From the NCBI GenBank assembly GCA_014871385.1, contig CM026428.1, forward strand, positions 1,585,088-1,649,087: DNA of 64,000 bases, given 5' to 3'. The notes under the pieces are model-generated. The model saw only the letters and a list, made by a program, of their open reading frames with translations. It was not told the DNA's origin and did not search any database. Positions within the stretch are counted from its first letter, which is position 1. Every line of letters begins with the position of its first letter. This stretch comes from Ceratodon purpureus (taxonomy: Eukaryota; Streptophyta; Bryopsida; Pseudoditrichales; Ditrichaceae). Shown in pieces: positions 18,790-60,138 of the stretch. The position numbers were made by a program, and so were the translations under genes.

Positions 18790-21700
18790 ATGGAGGGCGT
18801 TGTTGTCGGGGTTGTTCAGGAGCTTCTTTTCGAGGAATTGCGAAGGCAGGCTCATTTGAAGAGGGCGATGGCGGCTACGGCGGGGAAAAGGAGAAAAGAG
18901 AAGAAGGCGGTGGTGGAGATTGACGCTGTTCCGGTCAGCGCTGAGGAGATCCACGCCGAAGTGGAGAGGAAGAAGGCGGAGAAGGCAAGGCGAGCCCGGG
19001 AGAGGAAGGAGAAGCAGCAGCGTGCTGCATTTCGGACTGAGAAGAAGCTGAGGTTGGTGCGAGCGCTTCAAGCGAAGCTCGATGCGCAGAGAGGTAAAAA
19101 AAAAAAGTTGCCGGTGACGCCATTGCCTGCGGGGGAGTTGAAGCGGAGGGAGGCCGTGAAGCAGAAAACAATGACGGAGATGTTTTTGTTCACTGGCCGC
19201 AATTTGCCGGCCCCTTCCGATCCGATTTCTTCGAGTTCAGGGTCCGAGCCTGAGGGTTCTGCACCTCAGCAAGAAGTTCTGACGGTGTCTTCAGACACTA
19301 TGGTGCCGGGGGACAGTGGATCGGGGTTCACTGGACAGGTGGGGGTTCTGGGACTGAGCATTGATGAAGGTGTGGATCAACGCAAGCGTAAGGCTAGCAA
19401 TGTTGTGCACCTGAGCTCAGAGTCGGAGGGTCATGACTGTGATCTGCCTGAGGATCTCGATTTGAGCAACTTGCAGGAGTTGTCATTCTCGGACACTGAC
19501 GAGGAAGATGATTTTGAGGACAGTTCTCCTCCTGCAAAGAAAAGGAAGAAAGATTATGATTCCACCCGGAAGTTCCAAGAGGTTTGGGCAGTGAAGCTGC
19601 CTTGGGCCGAGGGCATTTTGGGAAGCGATGGGGTTTTGCACATGGTGAAGTGCAACCCTTGCACCATTTTCAACAAGAAACCATGCATCATGGCCCCCAA
19701 ATGGGACACCCTTGTGAAGCACGAGGGTCGTAGGACTGCAGACAAGGACATTCCAAAGTATGGGGTGAAGAAGGGGCAATTATATATTTCAAGTGACTGC
19801 AAGCACCGCAAGAACATGAGGCTCTACATTGCACAAAAACCAACAACGGTCTTGGAGATGGTGAACCGTTGCAACAACGTTGAGTTCGTGAAGAAGAAGG
19901 TGCAATTGGCCACCTTATTCCACATCCTCTCTAATGGGCGCCCTCTCCTTGAGTATGAGTCCATGGCTGGGTTGTTCTCTTACCTTGAAATTCCTCATTT
20001 TCCTAGGAAGCACTGGTCTGATAATAGTGGGTGGACTTTGTCTGAGTACATGTTTGCTGAGGTGAAAACTGAGATTGTGAAACAAGTTAGCTCTGCCCAA
20101 TATGTTGCTCTAAGTGCAGACGAAACTAGCACCTTGGATAATGGGTCGTGGATCTCAGTCCATGGTTATGTGGTCCAAAACTGGGTAAGGATCCCATTTC
20201 TGATTTTACTTCAGCAAGTCGTAGATGGTGCCGGGGCTGCTGCACTAACTGATTTGCTTCTGAAGGCTTTGAAGAATGGGGCTGGCCTTGACAAGCCAGA
20301 CATTAGCACGAAACTGCTAAGCTTCGGTGCAGATGGAGCTAGTACTTTCCAGGGTGCCAAAACGGGCGTGACTCAGCAATTACAAAGCCAATATGCCCCA
20401 TTTATGGTAGGGCAGCATTGTGGTGTGCACAAGACAAACTTGGCGGTGAAAGCCTTGAGTGAGCTGCCCATTTTCGGCAGCATTGAGGAAATGTTGAGAA
20501 AAACCCATGGCTACTTCAAACACTCCCCGAAGCGTCACTTGGAGTTTATCAAATTAGCTGAAGTAATGGAAACAATGGGGTTAAAACTCCTGAAGAATGT
20601 TAAGACTCGATGGGTGTCTTTGATTGAGCCACTTCGGAGGCTTTTGGCACAATACCGAGTTGTTATGGCCAAAATGGCCGAGGACATTGATGACAATAAG
20701 GATGCAGGGGTAAGTGAATTCTTTTTCTGTTTGTTTTTTTTTTTTTTTTTTCCTTTTTGTTTTTTTTCGTTTGAATTCTCCTTGTGTATCTCGTACTAAT
20801 GTGTGGTGGTTGTTTGGGCAGGAAAACCTTGGTCTCTTGCAAGACCCCTACACCCTCCTCGGCATGACCTGTCTGCTGCCGCTACTGGAGACAGTTGATG
20901 CACTGGTGTCCTTTTCACAAGGCCGTGATGTTTATGTGTGCGATTTTGTTGCTGCAGTTCAGATTTGTGAAAGTCAGCTGAACAAGCTGTATGTTGAGGA
21001 TACCACTGCATTTCAGGGCGATGAATTCTGGGCCTTCCTTGGACTGGAATCGTGCACCCACGAGGTGACTCATCTTCGATGGATTGAGGACTTGAATGAT
21101 TCCTCGGAGCAGCTTGCTTTCATTGTGAACGGTGACAAGCTTTTTGCAAAGCATGCCCAGAATGGGTCCCTTGTGGCAGCACAATTAGTGGACAGGGTTT
21201 TGTATGCCGAGCTGATCTCCACAGTGAAAACTGAATGCAAGGGTGAGTCCACTTCTTCTATCACAATTGTTTTTCTTTCCTTGATTTTATTTTCTTGCTT
21301 CCTGCTTCATGGTTTTATTTTCTTGCTGCTTTTTGCTTGCTGGTTTTTGATTTCAAGTGTCTGTGAACTTGTGAAGGGGCTGCGAGGAAGCTCATGGGCG
21401 AGCTCAAGGCCCGGTTCCCGGAGCAGCATGTGTTGAATGCTCTTGGTGTGGTATATCCACAATATTGGGCCAATGGTGGTGGCCTAGACACTTTCAGCAA
21501 GCATTTGGAAATCCAGAAGGGGTTTTACTGTGAGCCGAAGTGGATTGACGATGGAACTGAGGGCAGCAAGGGCCGGAAGTTGGTGTCACCGCTGCTTGAT
21601 AGTTGGAAGCTCGAGTCTCAGCAAGGCATGTTTAAGACTGTCATGCAGTCTAATTGGCAGTTGGCTTTAGAGCCACCCTTTACTTGCAATCCCCTCACTA

Positions 21701-21900
21701 AGCTCTGGCGGATCTTGGATGGAAATTCCTTGACTCAGTACTTGTTCTCAGAGTACCTTAAGCTTGCAGAAATTTCTCTTGTCCATGTCATTGGTAGTGT
21801 GGAGGATGAGAGAACCTTCTCCACTCTCAGCTTTCTCAAAAACAAGTTGAGAAATGCTCTCAATGAGCACCTCCCTCTTGTGGTGGGGATGTATTTCTAG
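18790..21900 (+). CDS. hAT-superfamily transposase-like protein, copy 1
   Basis: Three exons (18790-20709, 20822-21242 and 21377-21900) with GT-AG introns and matching phases give 954 residues. The N-terminal third is a basic, charged coiled-coil region (AEVERKKAEKARRARERKEK) followed by a Ser/acidic stretch containing NVVHLSSESEGHD. A Cys/His cluster (VKCNPCTIF, SDCKH) resembles the DNA-binding finger of hAT proteins. The RNase-H-like core is seen in YVALSADETSTLDNGSW, SFGADGASTFQGAKTGVT, GQHCGVHKTNLAV and KNVKTRWVSL. The C-terminus has the hAT dimerisation motif (VEDERTFSTLSFLKNKLRNAL). It is similar to the ZNF862/C17orf113-like group. The frame ends at TAG 21898-21900, but 31 more family-like codons follow in frame to 21996 (LDSFPYQAAFEKWL), so that TAG is probably a recent nonsense mutation. 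Another copy is at 45522-47060. Confidence 0.85.
20737..20768 (+). repeat. Poly-T tract in intron 1 of hAT copy 1
   Basis: A T-run of about 19 plus further T-rich sequence fills most of the 112-bp intron between 20710 and 20821. The second hAT copy has no intron at the equivalent place, so this intron may be a recent gain or may have been lost from the other copy. Confidence 0.6.
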
Positions 21901-21996
21901 AAATTGTACACTTTAGACAGTTTCCCCTACCAGGCTGCTTTCGAGAAGTGGCTTGCTGGGGCAGAGCGTTATGGGCGCTACAGTTTGACAGCTTAG

Positions 21997-22829: not shown

Positions 22830-22830
22830 A

Positions 22831-23998: not shown

Positions 23999-26089
23999 AT
24001 GGAGGTACGTATCCCCGACTCCAGTAAAGCCTTATTTTCCTATTTGTTTCTCTTGTTGTTTTTTTGCGGTATGGAATCCTTAACCGCCCATCTGGCTGAC
24101 CTCTGCATTGTGAGCAGGATCACCGAGGAAGTGCCCATGGAGACGGACTCTATTTTCTGGAGCATTTCAAGGTAAGACACTTCTCATGTCGTTTTCCAAT
24201 TTTTAGTATTTACCAACGTCATTAGGATTTACGATTGTTAACCGAAATCCAGTCGTTTCTCTCGAAGCTCAGGTTTAAGGTGATGAAGTACACGATATAT
24301 AGGGTTTAGTACATAAGGGTTTTAAGGGTGTACTGATCAATATCTGCGTAGGGACGACGTCGAAAGGAATGACAAGGATTGGTTTTACCATCCTGTCTAT
24401 TGCCAGAATAAGTGTGGAGCATCTCTTGGAGTCGTGAACAAGTACTGCTTTCTCAGTTTTTTTCCTTTCGGTTGTCCAAAGTGTGGGAACTCTACGCAGA
24501 TTTAGAGGGCCAGCGACATGGCGGAGGAGCCAGTGACACTGAAAAGTGTCATGTACGGGATAACTTACGAGATCATGTACCCTAATCGGAGGCGTGTAGA
24601 GGACCTTCAGGCGGAGTTCGCAACTGTGTGTAAGGGGAAGATGAAGCCGAATGGGGTGAGACGATATTTTGTTTGCATCCAGTGCGGAAAGGGGGACTTC
24701 TCCAACAAAATGATGTTAAACAAGCACCGGTATATTGAGGGATGCAAAGCCGCGAAGCATCCTGATGGTACAACGGCTTTACTCCTACCCTACCCGGATT
24801 TCAAACGTGGAGAGGGGAAGCGAGTTGAGGTGCTCGGGAAGACAACGGCGGCAACAAAAGCGAAGAGTGCAGCAGCAACTACAGGGTCTGTGAAGGGATG
24901 AGTTGGGGGTGTAAAGAGTAAGTCACAAACGAAGTTGACGACGGTTGATGGGGTTTTAGTGAAGTAGACGGAAGGGAAGAGCACTGTCAGGCATAACGTC
25001 GCGCCGGCCGCGAACCTATACTGCGGGAAAGTCTCAGGGGTCATCCGAGATGCGGAGGGCGGGGTTGATTCGAAGAGGAAACGGAAGCAAGCTGCTACCG
25101 AAGCGGCCCCTCCATTCCGTAGCTGTAGAAAGCATCCGACGATTGTTTCACACGATCCTACTGTGGATGACCTAGGAGAGGCTGAAGAGAAGTGTCACCA
25201 CGATGTTGAACTCCGAGAAGAAGACACTATGGCAGGGGAGGGGGGAGTTGCAAATGGAGTGAAGAAAAGACGTACCATGTCTTTCTAGGTTGACGCTGTG
25301 AAGCGACTACTAGCACACGGTGACACAGACCAGACGGGGAGAATGGGGAGCGACAGCTTATTGCCGATGACACCGGGAGGGATATTGAAGTCCGGAAGTC
25401 TGATGACTTGTAACACTAATGCGCAACATCAGGGGTCACAGAGTGATGACAAAGTGGAGTGTGTACCAATTACGCGGGGTATTCGACTGCAAAACGTAGA
25501 TTCTGGAAAGCGGGATAACAGTTTTCACGTGGCATACCGGGAGACAAGGGAAAGGAGTGTAGAAAAAAAGAGCACACTTTTGAATACATCAGAGAACAAG
25601 GTACGTGCTCAACAAGAAGCTATCGACACATTACGTGAGAGGTTCTCAAAAGTAGTACGAAATGTGGTTAGAGGGCAGTTTGCGGGATACTACTCTAGGG
25701 AATGTTCACACTCTTGTTGTAATAGTCAATGTACGTTCAGAAATGTTCGTGATTCATCTTGTGACACTAGAATAAAACTCATAGATAGTAATCAGATGCA
25801 GAATCATTGTAATGTCGGAGATGATTTTCTGCAGTGTCACGGTGACGATATGACACACGAAGAGTCCCTCCTAGCGGAACCAACGACCCCCCTTCCTGAT
25901 TCGGACACTTCAATATCTACTTTGGAGAGGGTGTGCGCAGAAAGAGTGTGGGGCGGGGATGGCGACAACATTTCAGAGCTTCGAAGGTACTGGGCCGAAG
26001 GGGGACGTAGCTTGTACGTGAGCGGAGAGCGCAGAGCAGAGAGCGGTGAGCGCAGATTTGGAGAGCGGAGAGCACAGAATGGGGGATAG
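23999..26089 (+). pseudogene. Unrecognised zinc-finger-like reading frame broken by four in-frame stops
   Basis: Exon 1 (23999-24171) joins by a GT-AG intron to an exon beginning at 24352, and from there a single frame runs to 26089. It is interrupted only by TAG 24503, TGA 24899, TAG 24965 and TAG 25286; no frameshift is needed. The product would be about 635 residues. Cys pairs are visible: YCQNKCGA with FGCPKCGN before the first stop, then CIQCGKGDFSNKMMLNKH with a following Cys, a C2H2/C2HC-like finger. A basic block (SKRKRKQ) and a Cys-rich stretch (SHSCCNSQC) follow. The last 20 codons are the 7-bp GAGCGGN array. I do not recognise the family. It is probably a transposon accessory protein, given its neighbours, which is inference. 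The first exon includes a hydrophobic stretch that may really be intronic. Confidence 0.5.
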
Positions 26090-27656: not shown

Positions 27657-30600
27657 CTACTTCTTCGCCAAGGGGTGACGCAAGATTCCACTCTCTAGGA
27701 GAAGCTTGACCTCGTTGAAGCTAAAGGTAGGCGCATGGATGAAAAGCTCGGCTTCGGGATCACAGTTGCAGACCTTCAAGAGTATGTAGTAAAGGTGCTT
27801 ACAATACGTGAACTGAGTCCTGCCTCGGAACGTAGTCATCGTCTTCTTGAATGCTGGGCAAGTGCAACCAGGGTAAGAACTGATGGTAATCTGGTAACGT
27901 GTGATGTGTCGAACGACGCCCGAATCCAGCCCAATGATGCAACCGTGGCCTGGCTCAGGTATCATGGTGACGGAACGGAGGCGCGCTTTGAGAGACTTGG
28001 AGGAGCCCATGGAGAGTCGCTGCGCCGGATTGGGACGAGTGGCAGTGCGCTTCACCATCTTGCTGTCTCTCTTGCCTGGGTAGCGGTCAGCGTCTGCAGG
28101 GACTGGCACCGAGCTGAGATTTGCAGGGGGCCGGGCAGAGCAGAAGAGGCGTCTTGGGGAGGCCGGCTTCTTCAGCGGAAGTTGAAACCCTGCTGCTTCG
28201 AGGGCAAGAATCTCGGTGAGTTTGAGGTTAGTACCTAGTTTCACTGGCCAGACCTGTGGAATGGAGGGGAATTCCCGGTCTTTCGAGTAGTGTGCTACCC
28301 ACTTGCGTTTAGAGCCTTTCACGCAGCGCTCAATATCGTCGGAGCAGAAGAAGAACTCTGTCTTCTCCACTATGTTCCTGCGATAGTTAGTCCAAAGCCC
28401 AGTGTAGGTCAGTGCAGTTGTGCAATGGGGCCCCCTGACAATTCTCTCAGTGCACTTCTTTTTCGTTTCAGCTCTTTGGGCCCAGCAGCACTTTGCAGAA
28501 AGTTTGTGAAGTCTCGAAATGTGCCACTCCTTCACGTCGACCTTGGTTTCTTCAACCGCGTTGACATGGCGAATGCCGCCCTTGTTCACAGGTGAAGGTA
28601 GAGGGGAATCAGCTTCCTGGGCAGGAGATTGGGTACCTTCTACCTCGGTGTCGTGTTCGGAGTCGTCTTCTACAATGACGGGCATCTGCATAGGGCGAGC
28701 TCTGACGGCACGTCTTGGGCCTCTTGGGCGTGAGAAGTTTGTCTTGTCCGGGCGAAGAGACTCTTCGTCAGCTCCGATGGGGACGTCGGCTTTTCGCTTC
28801 TGTGAACCGAAGACTTCCGCTCCAGGCATGATAGGCTGACGGGTGCAGAACTCATCCACGCCTGGCATATCGAGCATGGGGTTTTCGAGCAGTGTAGGAT
28901 TTCCCCATTTCTTCGCGTTGCGTTCCGCCATTCGGAGCTTGAGTTCCTTCTTGGACGGTCCTGTTCCGCCGACGTCACCTTTGAGGAACTGGTAGTAGTT
29001 AACAACCTGTAGAAAAGCCTGAACGAAATCGTCCACGGTAGCAACGTAGAGGTGGTTTCCGTTGTTTTCTGAAGCTTGGAGCCACTTGTTGTGAATTGTT
29101 TCGGCGAGGTTACAGGTGGGCATCTCTATGAGTTTTTCTTCCATGAATTTCTGCAGTTTAGACAGTATGTGACGTTAGATTCACCGATTAGAGTTTTGTA
29201 GGTTAGGGCTAGGAAAGCAGTATCAAAAACATCAAATCAGAGTGCAGAAATCATACCTCGGTCATGAATCCCCCCCACTGGCGGAAGCGGTGGTGCCAGA
29301 ATGATAGCCACTGATCGAGTTTGATGAGTCCGCTTTCGCCAACGACCCCGGTGGATGCCCACCAGGCTCGCAACGCGTGGTACAGAGTTTCCGCCTCAGC
29401 CATGCTGGTCGCATTCTTGTACTGAGTGCACATCTTTTTGTGCTGTTCCCAGAGTTCTTCGGGGAAGTGCTTCTGCGTATACGCCACCATGTTCTGTGTC
29501 CAGTGGAACAAGCACGACCTCTCCCGGTCCTCCATTGGGTCCTCTTTGTTGCCATTGCCGTAAAGGATTCGGACTGCATTCCAATTCGCCTGTGCGTTAT
29601 CCGCCATGAACCCCTTGAAGTTTGGCGCTGCAACGCCATTGATCTCCATGACCAGGTTCAGGTTTTTCCAGAAGACGAGCTGGGCCTCTGTGTCCTCGGA
29701 CTGCATGTCGCAAGTGGCGATTGTCATCACGCGGCAGTAGGTGGCGTCGTACACATGGCACGCCATCGTCAACCAGTCTTTGACGCGTTTGACATGGTCG
29801 AACATGATCCATGCATTCTCCAAGTCGCCACCAGCTTGCATTTGGCTGACCAAGTCGACACCACTTCCCGGCCCGACCTCCGACATCTTGAAGACGAAGA
29901 CTTTGTCACGCATAGATCTCTGATCAAGAAACCTATTCTCCTGGAAATACGCCCAGAGACTGTTGCCACGTAGCTTGGTGATACCGTCCATGACTCCGTA
30001 CCTTCTGTTTTTTTTGAAGGTCGCGACTTTGTTGCGGATGTTTGGTGATGCCATGTCTTTGCATCGATCCAGAACAGGAACCAGCTCCTCCATTGTCAGC
30101 TTCCTCGGTGGTGCATCCTCGGGCTGTAGCAGATAGCTCCCGATGAGGGGTTTGCTCGCCTCCAAGACAACGGTGCTCTTTGTTGCTTTGTTGTTCATCT
30201 CTACCTGCTCTTCTATTAAGCTACTAATTTCTGCTTTAGAGTCTCTGTAGTCCTCAACTTTCACTGGATGATGATGTGTTCCTATGTGAATACAAGCTCT
30301 AGTCTGATTCGGTTTGCCCACAACGTAATAAATCTTAGCCTCGCATGTCGCTACACATGATGGAGGTTCTTTACATACCTTGCACACTAGCGTGGAGTCA
30401 GATGGAGGAGGCTGATCAATGAAAAAAGCTTGTAGGGTACAGCCTTCGAACTCAGTCTCGTTAACCTCGAAGATCTTGGGAACACGCTTCAGGAAGTCAC
30501 ACTCCCTGTTGCTGCAAGGCAGCCATCCGACGCAGGTGGAACTTCGAAAAGAGAGTCCAAAGTCGTTTTTGATGTTTCTTGTGATGGTCTTGGTCGACAA

Positions 30601-31476
30601 ATGTCCGTCGTATCGTTTGTCCATTCCCTGCATTGACTTGGCGGCGAGCTTAGAGGATCCTGCAGCAGCTGGGGGCAATTCAAAAAGAATCGGACCATCA
30701 AACTTCGCAGGCAAGTACTCTACTCTCTCGTGTCTAATAGTGGAATAGTCTATCTTCTTCTAAATGTTTTTTGACCCACACGCCTTTGCAAGCTGTTGAA
30801 GGAGCGGAACAATGCTAATTGTGACTTGGGACAATGGAGGAGACACATTGGAAGGAGGAGCATCTGCTTGGACCTTAGGCACCAACTTGACGGGACTGAC
30901 TTCGTCATCAGAAGAGAGAGTTATGACGGACAGAGGAGGAGGTTTCTCTACATCTGAAGTCTCGGTACCAGGCTCGACTTTGACCTTGACATCACGAGGT
31001 AAGGGAGTCTGAATTGTGCAAGTAGAAGAGCGACGTTGGGTGAGGATCTCAGTAGATGCAGCCATCAGAGAATCGGTAAGACCGTAGACTCTATAGGATC
31101 CAGGGAAGAGTCTCCACTGCAACATATTGTTCTCATCTCTCACTGAAGGTTGCCCGAGGGTGTGGGTAACCTCGGCAGTAATGTCATCAAAGATTTCCTC
31201 CCCTATATTGATGGAATCCTCACGGAAATGGAATCTGAGGCTCAGGCAAAGAGAGGAAACTGTAGCTAGACCATCGTCATGTACGCGAAACCTAAGAGGG
31301 ATGCCCATGCCTTGGGCATACAGACAGACCATCCCCATGTTCGCAGACGGAAAGAGGAGAAGAGTGAGTGTACTAGCGTAGTAGTATCGCGAGAGCAAAG
31401 TGAGAGGAATGATGCATCGCTGTTGATCATTTTTTGAAGTTGGAATGTCCATGTGGACGACTAGGTAATGATTCAT
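27657..31476 (-). pseudogene. MULE-like transposase with SWIM zinc finger, one nonsense mutation
   Basis: Exon 1 (31476-29257) and exon 2 (29150-27657) join at a GT-AG intron with phase preserved (GGFMTE|KFMEEKL), about 1237 codons. The frame is open throughout except for one TAG at 30762-30760. Domains in order: an N-terminal region with PLSVITLSSDDE (about residue 195); a Cys/His cluster (CSNRECDF, CKVC, CIHIGTHHHP) like the WRKY-GCM1/FLYWCH fingers of MULEs; and a DDE-like core with HVYDATYCRVMTIATCD, FKGFMADNAQANWNAV and CLFHWTQNM. Then come CNLAETIHNKW, a charged linker, a second Cys cluster and a SWIM finger (YPGCTCPAFK, FTYCKHLYYILL). These features support DNA binding and transposition in the nucleus. 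Two further copies lie at 60031-56091 (decayed) and 63833 onward. Superfamily assignment is by motif only. Confidence 0.8.
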
Positions 31477-31978
31477 TCTGTTACGTAACGAATGTATGAT
31501 TAAAGAGGGACGGCGCTATCTAATTAGAATGTTGCTTTTTGCAGGCCTGAGTTAACAGTGTAGGGATTTTTAGAACTACGCATATAATATTTGAATCGTT
31601 GTGGAAAGTAATTTCCACGGTTGACACACCGGAATACTAATTCCGGTAAGAAAATGTTAAAAATTTAAAAATTTTATGTTAGGAATACGGAAGTACTAAG
31701 TCGATAAGTGAAACAACCGGTTAAGACGGTTGGCCGAATAAATAAGAGAACCGGAAGGTCAGCCGGGTGCGATCCGGTCGTCTGCGGGGGAGGAGTGGGA
31801 GCACCGTCCGTATGACAGAACCCTGACACTGCAGACTTAAGGATAACCACCGAAAGGTACAACGCATGCGGGGAGAATGGCTGCAACCATTAAAACGCCG
31901 CCGGTCGCGATCGTCCAATGATGAAAGGCTACGACCGTCCGTCATGATGAGCTACGAACGGGTGGGCGTGAGGGCAGG

Positions 31979-31985: not shown

Positions 31986-32187
31986 GGAGGAAGAACAGCC
32001 GTGCTCCTCCTTTCTTTTTGTCATTTTGTGGCACGCTGGGTCCTTGTGTTCCACGGCGAAGGACGCAGTTAGGGTTGGACGGTAGGAGAGAGACGGTGAG
32101 TAGGAAGTGTTTCCGTTAGGTGAGGGATTGTGGTGAGGATCGTGCGTGCAGGTGTTACCGGAGTGACGGTGAGGAGGACTTAGCCGA

Positions 32188-34053
32188 ATGGGTAGAAAGG
32201 GGAAGGAACCGGCGGAGGAAGGACAGTTGGTTAGGGTACAACGGGTCATGCCGTTGATGCCGGCAGACGAGGGAGAGCAGGAGCTCCTCCGGACCGCCTT
32301 AGAAGCCATGGGCTGTGAGGTCCTACTGGACAAGGCATGGGGTTGGAAACATGCCCTTCCGGCCCAGGAGATCCTCGTCAAGAATCCCGAGAATCGAGGA
32401 ACCATCCGGGGAGAGCCGGATAAGTGGACGGCACAAATCTGGAGGGAGACGTATGGTTTCAAGAACTCTGGAGAGATCGCGACACCGGAGACCCGGGAGT
32501 TTGTGTGGGGGTATATCAAGGGGTCCGGAGACCCGAGAGAAGGATGGGAGCTGGAGGACATCACGAATCCGGAGGCCCGGAGAGTCGTAGGGTTTATGAA
32601 CCCTATTTTCCATCCGGAAAAGCCCAAACGGATAACCATCAAGTGGGCGTCCGTTTTCATTGGGGCCATGATCGGTGAATTCACGGTAGACTGGGGCGTC
32701 ATGATGAAGACGATAGTCGACCGGCAGGTAGCCAATCTCCGGAAGACCAAGAAGCAGGCCACCTGCCTTCCGTCTTTCCTCATTCACCTCTACCGTCACA
32801 AGGGGCTGTTGAGTCCTAAGGAGATCCGGGAGTACGATGAAATCACAAGCATACAGCAGTACGCCGAACCGGAAGAGGTGTCCGATCAGGACGATGATGA
32901 TGATGTTATCGAGGTCTCCCCCACGCCGGCTAAGAGACCCCGTCCCAGCCCGGAGAAGGGACAGCCATCCGGATCACCTCGGACTCCCACCCCGGCCAAG
33001 CGAACCTTGAACACGGAAGTCCAAAAGCCCACCGGGCCATCGGAGCACACCGGGGACCCGTGCCAGGACTTAGTTAACCTTTCGGAGCAGATGACGACGT
33101 ATGCTCGGTTCCTACAGTCGACTAGGCAGACGGAGGGCCGGTTGGCTACGGAGGTAATTGCCCTTACGGGTTCGGACTGGTTGGAGGAATGCCTGAATAT
33201 TCTTCGCAAGAACCGGGACTTGGCCGGTCTCCAGAACAAGCACATGGACTGGCTAGAGAAGTACCGGGAGAGGATTCTGAAGCTCGAGGAGGAAGTGCGT
33301 GATGCCCAGAAGGATTACAGTGACGCCCGTGACCGGGCAGCCGAGGCCATCCGGTCGGTCGTCGAGATCAAGGCCACTTTAGCCCTTCCGATGGATGTGG
33401 CCAATCAGTGCGCCGTTTACCAAGCCTTCTTGACCCGTCAGCCGGATCCGACTGTCAAAAAGATTATAAGGTTCATGCACGACCGGACGCAGGTGATGAG
33501 GGACACTTGGGTGCAGATGAAGAACATGGTGGAGATCATCGGTTCCGCAAAGGCCGGTCCGTCATCAGAGCCACCGGCAGATCGGGAGGGGCCCAGACCA
33601 CCGTCCCCACCCAGGGAACCGGCGCCGGTGCCACCTCCAGCCTCTCCGATACGGTCGACCATCCGGTCAGTCCAACAGGAGGTAGGACATCTGCTGGAGG
33701 ATCCTATCCCGGATACCTTGAGCAGTCTGCACACTCTGCCCAATTTGGCTGGAATCGAGACTGTTAACCCCGGAAACATCCCTTTGGAACCGGACCAAGG
33801 ACCACCACCGGAAGACTTTATGCCGGTACAGGGATCTCTGGAAAAGCTCCACGTGGATCTCAGCGCAGTTCCGGTGGCGGCACGATCTCCATCCCCGGCG
33901 GTGCAAGCAGAACGATACCGGAAGTCCAGCGAACCGTCGGCATCTGATGCTCCGGAAGAAGGCCCCTCGTTGAAGAAGCTGAAGAGGGTACAGAAGAAGG
34001 AACGGATGGATGGAACCCGGCACAGTCCCCGGTTCGATAAGCACAAGGAGTAG
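32188..34053 (+). CDS. Gag-like / plant transposon protein with coiled coil (intact, 621 aa)
   Basis: This is an uninterrupted ORF of 621 residues beginning MGRKGKEPAEEGQLVRVQRV. Residues about 125-215 contain RVVGFMNPIFHPEKP, IKWASVFIGAMIGEF and CLPSFLIHLYRHKGLLSPKE. This resembles the conserved domain of plant retrotransposon gag-like proteins often annotated as putative plant transposon protein. An acidic segment with DDDDVIEVSPTPAKR follows, then Pro/Ser/Arg-rich sequence. A coiled coil lies at about 350-400 (YRERILKLEEEVRDAQKDYS), and the basic C-terminus ends SPRFDKHKE. There is no protease, RT or integrase. The decayed homologue on the minus strand (41020-38826) aligns over the N-terminal region and the coiled coil. 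This copy is the only long transposon frame here without a premature stop, so it may be the youngest. Confidence 0.62.
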   Translation: MGRKGKEPAEEGQLVRVQRVMPLMPADEGEQELLRTALEAMGCEVLLDKAWGWKHALPAQEILVKNPENRGTIRGEPDKWTAQIWRETYGFKNSGEIATPETREFVWGYIKGSGDPREGWELEDITNPEARRVVGFMNPIFHPEKPKRITIKWASVFIGAMIGEFTVDWGVMMKTIVDRQVANLRKTKKQATCLPSFLIHLYRHKGLLSPKEIREYDEITSIQQYAEPEEVSDQDDDDDVIEVSPTPAKRPRPSPEKGQPSGSPRTPTPAKRTLNTEVQKPTGPSEHTGDPCQDLVNLSEQMTTYARFLQSTRQTEGRLATEVIALTGSDWLEECLNILRKNRDLAGLQNKHMDWLEKYRERILKLEEEVRDAQKDYSDARDRAAEAIRSVVEIKATLALPMDVANQCAVYQAFLTRQPDPTVKKIIRFMHDRTQVMRDTWVQMKNMVEIIGSAKAGPSSEPPADREGPRPPSPPREPAPVPPPASPIRSTIRSVQQEVGHLLEDPIPDTLSSLHTLPNLAGIETVNPGNIPLEPDQGPPPEDFMPVQGSLEKLHVDLSAVPVAARSPSPAVQAERYRKSSEPSASDAPEEGPSLKKLKRVQKKERMDGTRHSPRFDKHKE

Positions 34054-37764: not shown

Positions 37765-37770
37765 GGACTG
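37110..37770 (+). repeat. Six tandem units (108-134 bp), each with a 22-bp palindrome
   Basis: The core CACATTCTGTACAGAATGTG (20 bp), extended by one C/G pair on each side, occurs as palindromes at 37159-37180, 37267-37288 (one base changed, giving TAG), 37402-37423, 37510-37531, 37627-37648 and 37743-37764 (right arm decayed). The fifth is a perfect 26-bp palindrome (37625-37650). Spacings are 108, 135, 108, 117 and 116 bp. Between palindromes, G-rich coding sequence repeats (gaggtggggggaggccg). All units lie within the open frame of the 35396-37764 gene; the last is shifted in frame. Confidence 0.93.
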
Positions 37771-37849
37771 GGGTCGGGGGCAAAGAAGTTTAACATCTCA
37801 TGACGATATTCTTTGTTTTGATTGCAACTGTTTGTTGGAATCTTATAAT

Positions 37850-41590: not shown

Positions 41591-41860
41591 TAAAAGGCAG
41601 TTAGGACCAACCTAAGTAGGAGCAGTAGCTACTGACAGATCCAGAGAGGTCCAGACTGGGGTGGTAGACGGCTGTACTGGCAGGGACCAGGAGTACGAAG
41701 GACTAGTACCGGCAGGGACCAGAGGAGGACAGGGATAGAGATCCACAGTTCCTACCCAAGAGATCACCTGCAGGGACAGACTCGACTTTCTGGAGGAGCA
41801 GACAGACGAGAAGACCACCAGCAGGAAGGACTTGGAAGGAGGAGCAGTAACTGCCCTATC

Positions 41861-44024: not shown

Positions 44025-44157
44025 CATTTAGCCAAATTTTTGAAAGTAAAATAAACCCTATAACCGTGGAAAAATACTAAAAAAAGGCATGATTTTGTTA
44101 CTTTTTTTAGTAAAGGAGTATAATTCCGTGGAATTTAGGGTTATCACTGGTAAAAAT

Positions 44158-45470
44158 TAAAGGTCTGAAAACTTTGAGGAATATATCGAAGTTTGTGTAC
44201 AATAATCGAGCTGCTGAAACCAAGATGTATACCATGTCAGACTGCTTGTCTTCGTCGAATATTTCTTGGTCTTTAGATAAGACCATTGCTAGCTTAAGTG
44301 TCAACCAACGATCTATATAAACGTGAGCAGACGTCCTTGACGTTGTATTAGCTCAATAATTTGTTAGGAACTTTACCTTCTACTTCTTAGCAGTTGTTTG
44401 AAAGTAGCATGTTGTGAGTTTGGAGGAGGCTTCGGTCTTTCATTGTTTTCATCTGATTTGATTTGATTTAATTGGAGTTGATTGCGAAATCCTTCGTCTA
44501 CTCTACTCCAAACACCCTAAAGTAGTTGTGATTCTCATTTCCAATTCGTCTCCGTGTATGTAAAGGATAAAATGTCACAACTGTAACGCTCAAAATATAA
44601 CATGAAGAATGAAATGTTACAAAAGAAATGCTCAAAATTTATATTGCGCTGTAATTTCTCTCTTAACCATTAAAAATCTCACATTTCCATAGCCATATTA
44701 CCTATTCTTGGGAGAGATCCAGATACCATCTCTCGGAGAAATTTTCTCTCTTTCCAGCACATCCAAGACCTCATTCCCATTGGCCCATAGCAATGTCCTC
44801 AACTAATCTAACTCAACGCAACTAAGTTCTCCAAGGGACGCTGTCTCTAACCTCTCGTTGTAAATTAGAGATGCAAGTTTCCAAGAACTCCTAAAAACAC
44901 TCCAGTTGATGTTGGACCGATTAACTTCGTATTCATCCTTCGGACACCAATGGCGACCCTCGTACGAAAAGTAATCCCACCTCGCTAGTCGAAGGCATGC
45001 GTATTCAGGACTACTGTCAATCTCACGCTTCCACCTCTTCGACACAGCACGAGCGTTCTCGACGTCTTCAAACGTAATTACAGTCGGAGGAGTCCAACCC
45101 TGTGTTGCACTACTACCTATATGATCCCAGGGGTTAGGCCCATCCGCCATCCGCTTAAGCAAATCCTGTAAAATCGTTTCACAGGCAACAACCTCAAATG
45201 AATCGCCCATACCTTCAAACAACTCCCTAGCAAGTACAAGCTTAAGTTCTACATAAATCATTGAGCTTATACAACTTCAAGGACGTCTGCTAAGGTTTAT
45301 ATAGATCGTTGCTTGACACTTAAGCTAGAAATGGTCTTAGCTAAAGACGAAGAATTCTTCGACCGAGACAAGCAGCTTGACTTGGTATACATCTTGGTTT
45401 CAGCAACTCCATTATTGTACACGAACTCTGAAATATGCCACGAACTTTTAGGACCATTTCTTATTGCTGG
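44158..45470. repeat. Inverted repeat (about 215-bp arms) around an F-box-like ORF
   Basis: The left arm, about 44158-44373, is matched in reverse complement by about 45240-45470. Shared blocks include gctgaaaccaagatgtatac, cgatctatataaac and cagacgtccttga. Each arm holds a TATA box (TATATAAA at 44314-44321 on + and 45297-45304 on the minus strand) followed by leader-like sequence, so two copies of one promoter face each other. Only the right arm leads into an ORF (45261-44803). The arms are roughly 80% alike by eye. Confidence 0.8.
44803..45261 (-). CDS. Small F-box-like hypothetical protein
   Basis: This is a 152-residue ORF beginning MIYVELKLVLARELFEGMGD, 36 bp after a TATA box. It contains VACETILQDLLKRMADGPNP, then TFEDVENARAVSKRWKREID and CLRLARWDYFSYEGRHW. 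The pattern of leucines, RAVSKRWK and a following Trp-rich stretch resembles plant F-box proteins (ARSVSKRWR-type core), but the match is partial and the usual LPDDL start is missing. It is intact with a promoter, so it could be expressed. The inverted promoter copy opposite could drive antisense RNA across it. Confidence 0.4.
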   Translation of the reverse strand: MIYVELKLVLARELFEGMGDSFEVVACETILQDLLKRMADGPNPWDHIGSSATQGWTPPTVITFEDVENARAVSKRWKREIDSSPEYACLRLARWDYFSYEGRHWCPKDEYEVNRSNINWSVFRSSWKLASLIYNERLETASLGELSCVELD

Positions 45471-45521
45471 TTTCGAGTTTTCTTTTTCCTAGAATTATCT
45501 GTATTATCTAAAAACATCAGG

Positions 45522-47060
45522 CTAAAATACTTGCGAGATAGTGTAGGAGTGGTCCTCCACAACATCACAGAACTGCTGGAAGTGTTGCTTCTGGAAAGAA
45601 GAATCGGAATCAATGTACATCATGTACAATTCTGCTTGGCAGATTTTTATGGCTGCCACATAGTCAGAAACATATATGTGAGTAGACTGAGCAAATTTCA
45701 TCAGACAATTGACAGATTCAAGCAAAGGCATGATACAGGGCAAGGCCAAGAGTGTGCCGATGTCACACAGTAAATCACAGTTGAGCCGAGCCGAGTCCCT
45801 TGCTGCAGCCTGCTTGGCTGTAAGATCAGGCTCCTTAAGAGCCGCATCCTCGCACATTTTCACAATGAGAGTCTTGTACTCTCCCAATACTCTTCGAAGT
45901 GGATCCAGGAGCAAAATCCACCGGGTCTTCACATTACGCAACATTTTTAGACCCTCTGTTTCCATGAGGTCAGCAAGTTTCTGGAACTCAAGATCCTTCT
46001 TTGGAGAAGCAGAGAAATAAGCATACATTGCTTTGCATAAAGATTCCAACTTGGCCACAAGGGGCAAGTTCGAAATCGGTTGAACAGCAAGGTTCATTCT
46101 ATGCGCCATGCAATGCACCCCCAGCATGTAGGGGGCGTGTTTGTTTTTCAACTGAGTGGTGACTCCAGTTCGGGATCCCTGGAAAACAGAAACACCATCT
46201 GCTCCAAACGATACACATCTTTCTGCAATCTGATCAACCTTCAGTCCTCCATAGTGTGACATCGCAATCAGTATAGCTTCCAAGACAGCCGAGGCTCCAT
46301 TTCTTTCCACAAGACGCTGCAATGCTAACAAAATGGAGACTCTCCTAAATCCGACAACTATGTAAATATGAAGACTCAACCAGGACTGGTGATTAATGGT
46401 CGTTACCTCATCGGCTGATAGAGAAAAGAATGGAGCATCAACAATGAGTTTTTTGGCATGAGTTGAGAGAACAGCGGCCATGGACACAGCCATCTCCCAG
46501 CCACAGAACCCAGACCAATGTTTACGATGCATGTCCGGGACATGCAGCTGCGCAAGAAGGCCCTGCATGCTCTCATAGTCGGCCATTGGCCTTCCGTTAG
46601 AGAGCACCGAGAACAGTGTGCGAAATTGCACGAGTTTCTTTTTTTTTTTTTCTCTCACAACACCTTCGACCACCTTCTGCACAATTGTTTCTGAGCCACC
46701 CCTTGCGAAATGGATTCTCTCATTCTTTACGTGTGCTGGCACGTAGAGAGAAAATAGTGCTGGCCCTTGTTGATTTTCCCAAAATCAATCAGAGCCTTTC
46801 GCCTCCCAGCATGTTTCCACAAAGAATCCAGTTTCGGCACCAACAATTTGTCACGACCTTCCACATCAGAACAAATCTTGCAACGGACGGTACGGACCTA
46901 ACAGACTCTCCCATCGTTCCCCATGACTGGTTCAGCCCAGGGCATTTTTGCAGCCCAGCAGTCCTGAAAATGCCGGTTAAATTCATAGCTCCGGCGTCTG
47001 CGACGAGCAGCCTCGAAGACAAGGGACGCCACAGCAGCGTCCAGCTCCTTGCAATCGGAG
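45522..47060 (-). pseudogene. hAT transposase-like gene, copy 2, truncated and decayed
   Basis: Reading leftwards, 47060-46743 encodes RHFQDCWAAKMPWAEPVMGN and LVPKLDSLWKHAGRRKALID, matching the finger region of copy 1. It is broken by TAG at 46900-46898 and by a frameshift at about 46742. From 46742 to 45522 the frame is open for 406 residues and aligns with copy 1: SADEVTTINHQSWLSLH, SFGADGVSVFQGSRTGVTTQ, GVHCMAHRMNLAVQ, NVKTRWILLLDPLRR. It stops at HSYTISQVF, before the hAT dimerisation region, next to the right arm of the inverted repeat at 45470, so the C-terminal third has been lost. It lacks the intron that splits copy 1 at 20710-20821. Confidence 0.75.
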
Positions 47061-48655
47061 TCTGAAATCTACGTGGGTTGTGGTTTACCCAGCGTCTTGA
47101 GAAAGACGTTCTCAGCAGAGGACTCCGTCCCTAAACCTCCCCCGAAATCCAATTGATCAGAACCCACTCCAAGCGCCCCAGACTCCGTCTCGATCACCCC
47201 ACATAACTCAGTCAATCTGCAGCCCCCCTCAAATCCCTTGCTCAACGAACCCAATTCCCCAAAACCTACTCCCCCCCCATAGAGGAACTTAGACATCCCT
47301 TGCTGGACCAGCGCCATCGCAAAACACCTCCCCCGGACTCAACCAAAACCAAATCACACCAATGTAGTAAACACCAATGCAGCGCACCCCAACAAAACAA
47401 GTTACAGAATGGCAAAGAAACAAAACCGCAACAATTGAGAAGAAGGCAATGTGTGATCGAAACTCCCTGCGTGTCTGCATTTGTAAGTCCAAGCCAAACG
47501 ACGCCATCAGAATCGCAGCCAAGGAAGATCCAAGTAAACCGCAGGAACACATACCCAAAATTGGGAAAAGGTGCATGGCCTCTGGCGAGCGCCGGCATGG
47601 CAGAGGAGGAAAATGGCGAAGGAAGCCGAAAATGGAATGAGGAGGAAGGTGGCGAAAGATCTGGATTTGTAGGAAGCAGGAGGCGAAACTTGAGAGTGAC
47701 AACATCGTAGGTGGCGACTGGGATTAGACATCCCTGGGTGTTTTTGGCGACTGCGGCCCCCACTCATACCACGCAGGTGGCGAGGTGATGGGTGCCCATG
47801 TCCGTGGTGGGCGAATACTTAACCCAAATCCGTGATTTTTTGAACTGTCATGATCGCCATCATCAAAATGAGGTAGGGTGCTGGCGAATTATCGCGCACT
47901 TCTCAATCACTGTTTTAGACAAGTGACATCACCATGTGGCATGTTGTAATTGCAAAGAACATTGTGCACCAAAAAGCCTCAAGATCTTAGAAGAAAAAGT
48001 GAGGTTACAATCAGCTGCCAAAATGAGTCACCTAACAGTAATTGCTTATGGAAACCAATGATAACAAACTACCAAAACAAGGAGTGTTGAATTAGATGAC
48101 CAATGAGGAATTCCAAAAATAATGTCACCATCAATTCAAAATAATACACCTCTAAAGATGTGTAGTGGTATTGGTGCTTATGCCTTAGAAGAACTCTCTT
48201 CCAGCTTCAAAGTTCACACGCTCATTCCAGGGAAATTTGAACCTAATTTCTACCCGCACACCACTCGTCCATAGTACCATATCTTCTTGATCAAATAAAG
48301 CCAAGCAACCAAGTAGTAGACTGGGGACGTGCCACAAAATTGATAGACCCAATATTGCAATTCCAGGAGATCGATCAATGTATATTCTGCATCACGGATT
48401 ATCATAAAATGTGCTGATCAGCAAGCATGTGCGTAGCATCCGACAAATAGAATTCCAATTACGCTACTGGCTTTACTTGCATGCATCGAATATCAGGTCA
48501 GCTATCATGCCGAACATTAAGTCCATGATCGACAACCCAGGACTGGAACTACAACTGCCCGGCCGTGCACAACGGGAGAGTACACAGTTTTACCAAAACA
48601 CTATGAAGACGATCCAAATCGATGTCGTCAATTCGTTCAAACCAAAGGTCCTAAA
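47061..48655. other. 5' flank of hAT copy 2 and AT-rich spacer
   Basis: From 47061 to about 47770 the GC-rich sequence is open in several frames on both strands but shows no domain; it is probably the N-terminal and leader part of the decayed hAT gene. From 47770 to 48655 it is AT-rich, with an 82-codon + frame (48411-48659) that lacks support. Confidence 0.4.
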
Positions 48656-50015: not shown

Positions 50016-50057
50016 TGTAGTTCGAATTTTTATTTTTATGTTTTCCTCCCTCCCTTC

Positions 50058-50984: not shown

Positions 50985-51110
50985 ATTGTTGAAAGTGATT
51001 TGTAAACACTCCTGTCCAGCTCGACATGTAGCTGGAGCAATATATGACGTAGAAAACTGCCATTTGGAATCAAGAAGCTGTTTCTGATTTACAAGAAGTT
51101 GTTAAGTGCT

Positions 51111-51292
51111 GGGAGGAGATGGGGCGTTGTTGGACTGGGAGGAGATGGGGCGTTGTTGGACTGGGAGGAGATGGGGCGTTGTTGGACTGGGAGGAGATGG
51201 GGCGTTGTTGGACTGGGAGGAGATGGGGCGTTGTTGGACTGGGAGGAGATGGGGCGTTGTTGGACTGGGAGGAGATGGGGCGTTGTTGGACT
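51111..51292. repeat. 26-bp minisatellite, seven identical units
   Basis: The unit starts gggaggagatggggcgttgt and ends tggact. Units start at 51111, 51137, 51163, 51189, 51215, 51241 and 51267, and I see no differences between them. Because 26 is not a multiple of three, and the unit has no stop in most frames, it produces long open frames on both strands that should not be taken as genes. Confidence 0.97.
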
Positions 51293-51360
51293 GGGCATGG
51301 GGCATTTAGGGTCATGTTCAAATTTTTATTTTCATGTTTTCCTCCCTCCCTTCAACTTAG

Positions 51361-55439: not shown

Positions 55440-55544
55440 GTACGTCGTGAGCCGGCAGTGGTAGTGGATGAACGTCAGCCAACAGCCACTGTCGATGATT
55501 CAAACCCTAGCAAGCGTCGAAAACTGGAAGACAATGAATTCTGA
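55440..55544 (+). pseudogene. Relic of the MULE accessory ORF C-terminus
   Basis: Thirty-four codons end in VDDSNPSKRRKLEDNEF and a TGA. They match in position, orientation and sequence style the C-terminus of the copy 1 accessory ORF (VVGNPKRVRFED). The upstream part is lost or full of stops. Confidence 0.5.
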
Positions 55545-57521
55545 CTACTTTGCACACAAAAAAAGTGATTAGACCATACATGTGCAACATAACATACAAA
55601 TGTATGCACGTTCTGGAAATTGAAACAGAAAGAGTGTTAGTGATGAAGATATAAAATACTGCTGAGGACCCTGAATTGAAAACAGTGTAGACTCTCTAAG
55701 GTCGTGTAACATGGTCAGAAGCCTTTACCCCATTCATGGTCCTATTACAAAGGTGGGTCAGTAGTATACCTCCCTTTGACTAAGAGTTCTCTAGGTTTAG
55801 GGAGTCTAAAAAAGGTTTGTTCGGGCCTGAGCATACATGCGTGACTCCCTCCAAAACCCTTTTACTAGGACCTCTTTAGGAATTACATAGTTCTTTATAT
55901 GACTTGCAAAATGGTTCTTAATGGCGCTTACGTATATTAACAGCGAGATTCACAAGACTGGGAAAACCGGTTTCTAGTGCAACTGCAAATTTTTGGCAGT
56001 GGCCCTTTTAGTCTCACTACTTCATCATTGGAATAAATTCAAGCGATACATGTGCGAATAACGAATCAGATATCACTACTTGTCCAGGTACTAGAGAAGG
56101 CCACTCTCCAGGACTCGCTTTACTTCGTTGAAGCTAAAACTAGCTGCATGAATGAATGTATCCGACTCTGATTCAAGACTGCAAAACTACACTGAACATG
56201 TAGTACAAATGCTTGCAATTAGCCCATTGACCCCGCTTCCCAAGTGCCGTAATTGCCATCTCCTTGAAATTTGGGCAAGTGCAGGCAGGGTGTTGCGAAA
56301 TGGTCAAGTAGTATTGCTGTACCTTTGGAAGCTTCCCAGAATCCAATGTGACGAAGCATCCCAGGGCTGGGCCAGGTAGCATGCACAACTTGCTCACCTT
56401 CGCGTTCAACGATAAGGCAGAGGCACAATTATTGCTATGCTTGGTCGAGGGGGCCTTCTTGTTCCGTCAGTAGAGCTTTCCTGATCGCCGGGTAGGGAAC
56501 TTGTCCGGGTATGCCGGCGTAGGGTAGGCCGAGAAGTCCACTGCCGCTGCCCGGTCTTGAAAGAGTCTTCTCGGTGACATCTCCTTCTGCTGCGGGAGTC
56601 TGAAGCCGGCATTCTCTAGAGAGAGGATCTCTTTCTTTGTTAACTTGGTCCCAAGCTTCATGGGCCACACCTCAGTTACCTTTGGTACCAATAGGACCCA
56701 CTTCCGTTTGCTACCTTTGACGCACCTGTCGATGTCGTCATTGCAGAAAAAGAATTGATGAGTCTCTATTCTGTCCTTCTAGTAGTTCTTCATGGGGCCT
56801 GTGTATGTGGGCGCAGTCGTGCTCTTCCCGTGCTGCACAATCCGTGCCACGCATTTCTTCTTAGTCACAGCATGTTGGGCGAAGCAAGCCTTAGCGGATG
56901 TCTTAGAAAGTCGTGCTATTTGCCACTCGGAAGGGTTGCAGGCGGTCTCCTCAACTGAAGTGACGTGATGGTAGTCGACTCGAGGTGGAGACTGCTGGGG
57001 GTGAAGGTCGGCTTGGTCCTCTTCACTGCTTGTAGGAGAGTCTGCTATTACCACCGTCGGAGGGTACTCGCTCTCCCGGCGTGCAGCTCTAGTCTGGACA
57101 CGAGGTCTTGACACAATGATCATGTCTGGCCTATGAGACTCCTGTTCATCTCCAAAGGCAACATCAGGTTTACGTTTCAGTGAGACACAGACCTCCTCCC
57201 CTTCAAGATGCGGGTCCCTTGTGCACCACTCGTCCGCTTCTGGCATGTTCATAATCGCTTCATGTAGGACTTTCGGGTTCCATGTCCTTGCTGCAGATCT
57301 CTGTGCTCTTCTTTTGACGGACCTTTCCCAAGTCGGTCCCCCTTCAAGAACTGGAAGTAGGCAACGCATTGCATGAACGCCCTTACAAAGTCGTCGACAG
57401 CTGCAACGTACAAGTCGCTGCCCCGATCTCCAGACTGCTGTTTCCACCTGTTGTGAATTGATTCAGCAAGATTGCACGACGGCATTTCCGCCAGCTCTTC
57501 CTCACTGTGATTCTGCACACA

Positions 57522-57548
57522 TTAGGGGTTAGGTTAGGGTTTAGGGTC
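57522..57548 (+). repeat. Telomere-like tract in the transposase intron
   Basis: The tract contains ttaggggttaggttagggtt and ttaggg, near-copies of the plant telomere heptamer TTTAGGG. It lies at the exon 2 side of the copy 2 transposase intron. Copy 1's shorter intron has only gggttagg-like traces. Confidence 0.6.
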
Positions 57549-57585
57549 CGATTACTGACTGTGGAGCAAACACACTGCCCCTAGC

Positions 57586-57906
57586 AAGAATCCTCGGCAC
57601 CGAGGGAAATTGCAAAGGGCTGCAAGGCTGCTGCATTCGGGGCTAGCTTATGGCATGGAGCATCAGGAAAGAGCAGACTGAGTACCCCCAGGAAGAGTGA
57701 TCGACACGGAGGCAAATTGCCAAGGGCTGCAAGGCTGCTGCATTGGGCTCTAGGACATGGCACGGAGCATCAGGAAAGAGCAGACTCAATACCTCCACCA
57801 AGAGTCCTCGGCACCGAGGCAAATTGCCAAAGGCTGCAAGGCTGCTGACTTGACGGTAGGTCATGGCACGGAGCATCCGGAAAGAGTAGAGTTTGTACCT
57901 CCAGCA
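57586..57906. repeat. 107-bp tandem repeat, three units, inside the copy 2 transposase intron
   Basis: Units begin with aagaatcctcggcaccgagg at 57586, aagagtgatcgacacggagg at 57693 and aagagtcctcggcaccgagg at 57800, exactly 107 bp apart. All contain gctgcaaggctgctg and ggagcatc(a/c)ggaaagag. They enlarge the intron from about 106 bp (copy 1) to more than 400 bp. Confidence 0.95.
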
Positions 57907-60138
57907 GGATACTTATGATGCGACAGAGATTGAAAGGCGGAGAGGTTGCTTACCAATTCCATGAAGCCTCCCCATTGGCGATAGCGGTGGTGCCAGAACG
58001 AAAGCCACGTCTCCATATTGGAGAGCCCTTTTCCAGTTGCAGCGCCGGATGACATCCACCATGCTCGGATTGCCAAGAATTTTGTTTCAGCTTCGGCTAG
58101 TGTCGTCGCGTTCTTGTACTACTGGCAGAGTTTGATGTGCTGCGCTCGGAGGTCCTGTCGAATGTTTGCGTTTGTATGTTGCTCCAAAGACTACCTCCAA
58201 TGGAATAGGCATGTCCTCTCCCTATCAATCATCATCTCGGAGGCGTCACCGCTTCCATAGATAATTCAAACTGCGTTCCAGTTTGCTTGCGCACGGTCCG
58301 CCATGAAGCCCTTAAAGTTAACTCTCAAGACCCCGTGAGTCTCCATGATGGCATTCAAATTCTTCCAGAGGACGGACTGGGCTGCCGTGTCCTCTGACTG
58401 CATGTCGCACGCTGAGATTGTCATTATCCGACAGTACGTGGGGTGGTAGACGTGGCAGGCCATTGTTACCAAATCCCTAACTCGCCTCACGTGGTCAAAC
58501 ATGATCCACGCATCCTCCAAGTCACCACCTGTCTGCATACGCTTAACTAGATCGACTCCACTACCCGGCCCTACCTCAGACATCTTGAAGACATACACCT
58601 TCGCCGCATCATCGCCTTGTCCTGGGAACATGTTGTTTTGGATGAACTTCTAGTTGCTGAAGCCTCGCAGCATCCTGATGCCATCCATGGTCCCAAAGCG
58701 CCTAACATTCTTGAACGATGTAATGCAATTTCGAATGTTTGGGGAAGAGAGGTGCTACAGCGGTCAAATATTGGTTCGAGCTCCTCCAATTCCAGAATCT
58801 TCTGCGGTTCACCTTCCTTGGCCAGAAGTAACGGGCCTAGCAGCTCCTTCGCAGTTTTGAGGACGATGGCGGACGGAGTACGCTCCACCTGCTCCTTGAT
58901 CAAGTTCTCTGTATGTTCGATAGCGTCGCGGTTCTCCCCGGACTTCACTGGATGATCGTGAGTTCCCAAGTGAACACACGCTCTCGTCATGTGAGGTCCC
59001 GCACTGACGTAGTATATCCTTGCAGGGCAAAGCGCAACGCAGGTCAGCGGTGTATTGCAAGATTTACAGACCACAATGGAACTCTGCGGCGGGTTCGATC
59101 CAACTTCAAACAGTCTCTCAGATTTCCCATCCCATTCAGTCTTGTTCCCTACCGAAGTCCTGTTTTCATGTGTCAAATACTCACATTTGACATTGTCACA
59201 ACGGAGATGGCCAAGGCACGATGAAGAACGGAAGACCAACTTCAGGTCGTTTTGAATATTCGAAGTCACTGTGCGAGTCCAAGGGTGTCCATTGTGTTTC
59301 CTATCCATTCCCCGTAACTGCTTTGCAGCGGAGTGATGGGCGTGAGGGCCTAGGGGTGGGAACTCAAAAATGACATCGCCGTTGTACTGAGGTGGAAGGT
59401 ACTGAACTTCCTGCATTCTAATTGCATTAAAATTGATGCGCGACAGAACACTCTTGGACCTCTTACGGGCGCTAAGCTTCATGAGGCACTGAACAACACT
59501 TTCTGAAAGGGAGACTGCAGCGGTAGATGGAACGGCTGACTTCACGGAAGCAACTACTTCCTCAGGATTCTCAAGTGCAATTGGCAATGTCGTGTCCTTC
59601 CTCTCAGGGACTACTGTCGTCTCGACTACGTTTTCACTATCAGAATCACTTAACTCATAAATGGTTTGAAGTCCTGGCTGTGTCTTAACTTTCCTCAACG
59701 GCGGATCAGACTCAATGCACACTGTTGTGGACGATCGGGGGGTAAGCAATTCAATAGAAGCACCTAAGACAGACTCTGTAATTCTGTAGACTCTATACTT
59801 CCTAGGTTTAAGCAACCAAAACGTCTCAATCCCCTTCTAAGTTGACAACTGACCCACTGCATGCGAGAGTTCGCCAATGATGTCGTCAAAAATCTCCTCT
59901 TCTACATGAAGTGATTCCTCCTTGAACTGGAAGCGAAGACTCAGAGTTGTAGAACTGATCATAGCACACCCATCTACACCCAAAGGAAACGTAATCGGAA
60001 CAGAATGCGAATCTGCACGAAGGTAAGCCATACTGTGGACAGGAAGACCTCACGGCAACAGCGAGATGTGAAAAAGCAGACACAACAGAGGAGACGATCA
60101 CATAACAATACCTACCCTTCTGGGAAATGCTATTCTGC

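Follow-up and report, generated by a model that had tools for sequence, protein, structure and literature searches.

The window considered here, 64,000 nucleotides of contig CM026428.1 of the moss Ceratodon purpureus (assembly GCA_014871385.1, positions 1,585,088 to 1,649,087 of the forward strand), contains copies of several transposon and repeat genes whose reading frames are interrupted by stop codons. An earlier note had listed 22 such stops and taken them for a signature of methylation decay. Comparison with sister copies elsewhere in the same genome (362.5 Mb assembly, 151 contigs) covered 21 of the stops, and at 20 of them most sisters have a sense codon. The window probably holds dead members of several transposon families, in which deamination of 5-methylcytosine at CG and CHG sites, mainly CWG (H being A, C or T, and W being A or T), made most of the stops, a reading to which we give a probability of about 0.87.

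Interrupted genes and their sister copies

The listed stops comprise 17 TAG (21898, 24503, 24965, 25286, 30762, 35852, 37279, 42467, 42476, 42881, 43148, 43649, 46900, 58121, 58193, 58652 and 59839) and five TGA (24899, 36667, 40846, 43217 and 58268), with no TAA, and a recount gives the same tally. Coordinates and strands are correct for 21 of the 22, the exception being a TAG placed at 58653 that is really at 58652-58650. The description of the stops as internal to continuous frames holds for long frames on both strands, but some stand only at a frame edge and 24503 is upstream of the first ATG. Nor is the list a full census, as the translated frames of the second MULE-like copy also hold TAG 56781 and TGA 56469. 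All listed stops but 40846 were compared with sisters, and fractions given below for a position are of the copies with letters there. At five of the 20 positions where most sisters have sense, the stop is also present in one or two of them.

Six of the listed stops are in a fragment of a Ty3-type long terminal repeat (LTR) retrotransposon (41549-43968, plus strand) that covers the N-terminal portion of the polyprotein, most of it lying before the gag domain, and for which 39 further copies were aligned. C-to-T at CHG accounts for five of these stops and C-to-G at CHH for the sixth; at one of the five the sister codons are mixed, with 11 of the 39 copies one step away from the stop and 28 two steps away, and two of the six stops recur in one or two sisters. 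Another copy of the family, L043 (minus strand), has a frame that stays open for 2287 codons, as far as the locus extends, so unbroken copies exist. When this frame is scanned in five pieces, Pfam finds gag, reverse transcriptase, RNase H and integrase above cut-off, the integrase end being cut by the locus end, together with a weak protease match below cut-off. Self-comparison of the Ty3 copy locus found no LTRs, and the window has only the fragment. In composition the family is very poor in CG and rich in CHG: CpG observed/expected is 0.24 in the window fragment, 0.24 in the whole of L042, 0.30 in the whole of L043 and 0.61 in L041, and that for CAG/CTG is 2.0-2.2, also in copies with long unbroken frames (1.67 in L041).

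Five of the listed stops are in a second MULE-like transposase gene (56100-60060, minus strand). CAG is present in 14 of 15 sisters at both 58121 and 58193 (one sister having the same stop at the latter), CGA in 11 of 15 at 58268, where again one shares the stop, and TGG in all 12 sisters that have letters for the whole codon at 58652, three more being without them. These codons bear out the proposal that Gln, Gln, Arg and Trp, respectively, had been replaced. The change at 58652 is G-to-A in CTGG, that is, CHG on the other strand, in 11 of the 12 comparisons. At 59839, eight of nine sisters have CAG and one has GAG. The match of this copy to the first MULE-like copy (27660-31515, minus strand) switches frame at about 58.75 kb. 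The first copy is open at 27660-29174, 29254-30759 and 30763-31515, and 37 further places at 93-94% identity were found for it among 38 scored. Its single stop, 30762, is TTG in nine of ten sisters and CTA in the other. Splice acceptors at 30762 and 59839 were considered and ruled out, since sisters carry sense codons there.

Two hAT-like transposase genes are also interrupted. Copy 1 (18511-21993, plus strand) is open at 18511-20796 and 21367-21897, in different frames, and its frame continues beyond the stop at 21898 to 21993. The codon at 21898 is CAG in five of eight sisters, the close ones, and CAA in the three distant ones; the idea that the protein naturally ends at 21898 fails, sisters continuing with sense codons. 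In copy 2 (45525-47100, minus strand) the stop at 46900 is beside a 9-base insertion, and the codon is CAG in four of six sisters and CAA in two, with two more distant copies also having CAA. The hAT and MULE labels were given by eye from motifs, Pfam returning no match above cut-off for these frames or for any of the 20 window frames scanned.

Two repeats are unclassified. That of family B (24506-26086, plus strand; first ATG at 24518) has stops at 24899 (GGA in nine of ten sisters, GCA in one), 24965 (CAG in eight of ten, CAA in two) and 25286 (CAG in nine of ten, TAG in one). The stop just upstream, 24503, arose by C-to-G (TAC in nine of ten sisters, TAT in one; a CHG site in seven of the ten comparisons) and may be noncoding, as its frame has no ATG until after it. 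In family F (35390-37800, plus strand), 35852 is CAG in nine of ten sisters and CAA in one. At 37279 both of two sisters have CAG, as do four other tandem units, which agrees with the proposed original codon, the number of sister repeats keeping it being four and not the five claimed. The stop at 36667 is of a different kind. It is a stop in all seven aligned sisters of eight fetched (five TGA, two TAA) and is within a splice-donor-like GTRAGA (GTGAGA or GTAAGA) that is kept despite the TGA/TAA exchange; it is thus not decay of the window copy and may be a splice donor, to judge from the motif. The tandem units, of about 108 bases, occupy 36998-37760, and a palindrome, CATTCTGTACAGAATG, occurs in four places with a one-base variant at 37270.

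The remaining listed stop, TGA 40846, is in an unclassified gene (38829-41011, minus strand) with about 31% protein identity to another unclassified gene in the opposite orientation (32173-34050, plus strand), both having long open stretches. Elsewhere in the window there is an unbroken 530-codon frame at 8933-10522 that by eye resembles a pentatricopeptide repeat (PPR) protein, a perfect tandem array of 7.2 copies of a 26-base unit at 51109-51295, and an inverted repeat, perhaps a foldback element, with arms of 239 bases each at 44152-44390 and 45227-45465 that are 83% complementary and have 836 bases between them. Rfam and tRNA scans of the window were empty.

Substitutions at the stops and across families

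At the 21 compared stops the changes were 16 C-to-T, two C-to-G, one G-to-T and one T-to-A, the conserved 36667 making up the number. The C-to-T changes were at CHG in 13 cases, at sites with both CAG and CAA sisters in two and at CG in one. The earlier note had derived TAG from CAG via CHG and TGA from CGA via CG, and the 13 CHG and one CG changes among 20 stops are in accord with this; under flat mutation C-to-T at CHG would account for 9% of new stops in 11 window frame pieces. A further suggestion, that point changes outrun indels, is correct for the three pieces aligned, in which the window copies have 126, 117 and 15 private substitutions (258 in total) and three deletions (9, 73 and 1 bases) without any insertion. 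It does not extend to every frame, given the insertion at 46900 and the frame change near 58.75 kb.

A broader view comes from clean singleton substitutions in five families of 34, 8, 14, 5 and 7 sequences, the window copy being counted in each (L042, L043, L044, L021, L036, L027, L053, L060 and L061 were dropped as near-duplicates, and L054 and L055 as distant). For these counts the tandem-repeat columns of the Ty3 piece were left out, and odds ratios against CHH are Mantel-Haenszel estimates. Summed over the families, C-to-T singletons are present at 85 of 483 CG, 206 of 790 CHG and 249 of 1986 CHH sites, and T-to-C at 170 of 2989. Against CHH, the C-to-T odds ratio is 2.07 for CG (p=7e-7) and 2.39 for CHG (p=3e-16), rising to 2.31 and 2.64, respectively, when the Ty3 family is omitted; against T-to-C, the ratios are 4.26 for CG, 5.82 for CHG and 2.37 for CHH. 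The enrichment at CG and CHG that family alignments had been predicted to reveal is therefore present. Within CHG, the C-to-T rate at CWG exceeds that at CCG (odds ratio 2.02, p=0.019), and CCG is not above CHH. This last comparison, and those of strand, CpA and 5'-pyrimidine given below, were made with the flank filter off and the tandem columns in. Composition alone is no test, because CpG depletion fails to separate host from transposon in the window (observed/expected 0.67 in the PPR frame vs 0.24-1.00 in the elements).

The absence of TAA from the list, which the earlier note had put as "never", is no rule. In a census of the Ty3 family (34 sequences, six near-duplicates having been dropped, with positions counted where one codon reaches at least 60%), 66 codon positions have a stop in some copy, of which 47 are TAG, 12 TGA and 7 TAA. 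The commonest codons at the 766 counted positions include 61 CAG, 9 CAA, 4 CGA and 13 TGG. Flat mutation expects 31.6/18.9/15.5 TAG/TGA/TAA and is rejected (p=0.0007). The measured context rates, which derive partly from the Ty3 family itself, expect 44.1/12.9/8.9 and fit (p=0.71). TAG thus prevails in this family through CAG supply multiplied by CHG mutability, and TAA is scarce, though not forbidden, mainly because few codons are one methylation-type C-to-T step from it. CAG has less of a lead over CAA in the other frames, two of the nine having more CAA than CAG. Twenty stops would include no TAA with a probability of 0.0019 if mutation were flat and of 0.016 at the measured context rates, and the zero among the listed stops is a small-sample effect.

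A tentative accompanying C-to-G excess

C-to-G singletons, too, are more frequent than at CHH at CHG (odds ratio 2.24, p=9e-6) and CG (1.88, p=0.014) in the five families, and without the Ty3 family at 1.80 and 1.84 (p about 0.03 each). The excess is strongest in one family, and two families are without it at CHG (6/157 vs 13/409 and 2/123 vs 9/342). At CWG the odds ratios are 2.62 for C-to-G and 1.85 for C-to-A; at CCG neither is in excess, nor is C-to-A at CG.

We regard the excess as tentative and a lead only. One doubtful interpretation, to which we lend rather little weight, is that methylated cytosines at CWG and CG also undergo C-to-G change in excess (with some C-to-A at CWG), so that the dead transposons would record not only spontaneous deamination but also active demethylation or repair, 24503 being one scar. 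5-Methylcytosine, or the T:G product of its deamination, would be excised, and the abasic site would be copied in an error-prone manner, with REV1 inserting C, to yield C-to-G and C-to-A beside C-to-T. Plants are not known to have a TET route. A modified cytosine is likewise tied to C-to-G in mammals, with repair implicated, but there it is 5-hydroxymethylcytosine (PMC4161303, as far as its available parts go). Plants do have 5-methylcytosine glycosylases, MBD4 and REV1 (PMC10573277, available in part). In contrast to the partial C-to-G excess at CWG and CG here, the accessible portions of a wheat study report no difference in transversions between transposable elements and introns (P=0.59; PMC2996936). 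If the excess is real, old transposons would be a fossil record of methylated-cytosine excision in plants.

Causes of the decay and what it records

The reading favored for the C-to-T changes is that silenced copies would have had their cytosines methylated at CG and CHG, mainly CWG, and that 5-methylcytosine would have deaminated to thymine, with CAG, CGA and CTGG contexts becoming TAG or TGA in place. In the Ty3 frame, source of six of the stops, CAG far outnumbers CAA, whose cytosine is in the less mutable CHH context, and the result would be mostly TAG and rarely TAA. We infer from the substitution spectrum that methylation caused the C-to-T excess. According to the available parts of a study of Physcomitrium, CHG methylation by CMT is as strong there as CG methylation by MET, CCG methylation needs MET, and moss CHH methylation favors CWH (PMC6453930). 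The higher rate at CWG than at CCG agrees with that division of labor between CMT and MET.

Several observations weigh against this explanation. The 3' part of MULE-like copy 1 (five sequences) is without a context effect (8/129 at CG, 8/123 at CHG and 21/342 at CHH), and CHH changes exhibit no preference for CWH, unlike the moss CHH methylation just mentioned. Four of the 20 stops are not C-to-T: one belongs to the Ty3 fragment, and the others are 24503, 24899 and 30762. The listed stops are more CHG-heavy than even the measured context model allows, the probability of at least 13 CHG among 20 being 0.007 under it, an excess that may stem from the stop list having been made by hand. In addition, context-blind rates, which expect 37.9/15.9/12.2 TAG/TGA/TAA in the Ty3 census, are rejected only marginally (p=0.068).

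That marginal fit is relevant to the possibility that codon supply alone, in frames with plenty of CAG but little CAA or CGA, yields TAG and TGA through context-blind mutation without any effect of methylation. The lopsided supply in the Ty3 family suits it, and flat mutation by itself already predicts 46-49% TAG and 25-27% TAA. With codon supply explaining most of the TAG excess, the tally of stop types is weak evidence alone. However, among singletons a CHG or CG site undergoes C-to-T about twice as often as a CHH site, and at least 13 CHG changes among 20 have a probability of about 1e-9 under flat mutation and 1.4e-4 with context-blind measured rates; as a full account, codon supply is unlikely. 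Programmed readthrough, or reassignment of TAG in transposon genes, would find some encouragement in several frames remaining open across 3-6 stops. It is rejected, with hardly any probability left to it, as the stops are not conserved at the same codon in sisters: the sole conserved one, 36667, looks like a splice donor, and 11 of 15 MULE-like sisters lack any stop in the approximately 600 bases compared.

Other machinery generating C-to-T, namely hypermutation like repeat-induced point mutation (RIP), a cytidine deaminase that attacks cDNA with a strand bias, or ultraviolet light, would account for the dominance of C-to-T in the spectrum, and mosses are sun-exposed. RIP is disfavored by the lack of a CpA preference of C-to-T within CHH (CA 77/598, CC 118/793, CT 75/591; odds ratios 0.99 for CA vs CC and 1.1 for CA vs CT), and a cytidine deaminase by the likeness of the strands, no difference being significant at CG, CHG or CHH (113/393 vs 100/399 at CHG). 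The 5'-pyrimidine effect expected of ultraviolet light is small and not significant (odds ratio 1.35 at CHG, p=0.07), leaving it a minor share that it could add, and three of the four other families share the retrotransposon's context effect. Such machinery as the main source is very improbable; the CG and CWG enrichment, the symmetry of strands and the lack of CpA bias are what deamination of 5-methylcytosine predicts; RIP, ultraviolet light and strand-biased deaminases do not predict them. Polishing of repeats is difficult and methylated motifs are prone to miscalling, and errors of assembly or base calling at methylated repeat sites merit a thought on that account. Indeed, single-base length errors in the assembly are possible, because the frames of copies L052 and L053 disagree at one place though no substitution separates the two. 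As a source of the stops, however, error is scarcely credible: L043 and L044, from distinct places, agree without substitution over about 2.5 kb, L052 and L053 agree over 1.7 kb (L053 being on a small contig and maybe the same place), L059-L062, which are spread over three contigs, have no more than a single residue of difference in about 190 codons, and some stops are common to several copies.

Deamination of methylated cytosines is thus supported as the probable origin of most of the stops, with the corrections that the TAG excess is mostly codon supply, that TAA can occur and that 36667 is no decay event. The process itself is already known in plants and is here seen in a moss genome; among the best-ranked matches in the open-licence literature, no title dealt with stop-codon decay of moss transposons. 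A scan of wheat transposons likewise gave higher transition rates at CG and CHG than at CHH, in parallel to methylation, and used them as its proxy; transposable elements mutated faster than introns and untranslated regions, but orthologues were compared and the available parts have no analysis of stop codons (PMC2996936). In Arabidopsis mutation-accumulation lines new mutations also favor methylated CG and CHG, and CHH too in heated lines, though that is an angiosperm with mutations observed directly and bisulfite data (PMC8145854, excerpts). The Welwitschia genome, with its high CHH methylation, was treated at the level of genome composition, the accessible portions having no per-site polarized spectrum (PMC8275611). 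In the moss, a striking stop-codon pattern is accounted for without new biology, and sequence alone, by way of sister copies, recovers the ranking of CG and CWG above CCG and CHH without recourse to bisulfite data.

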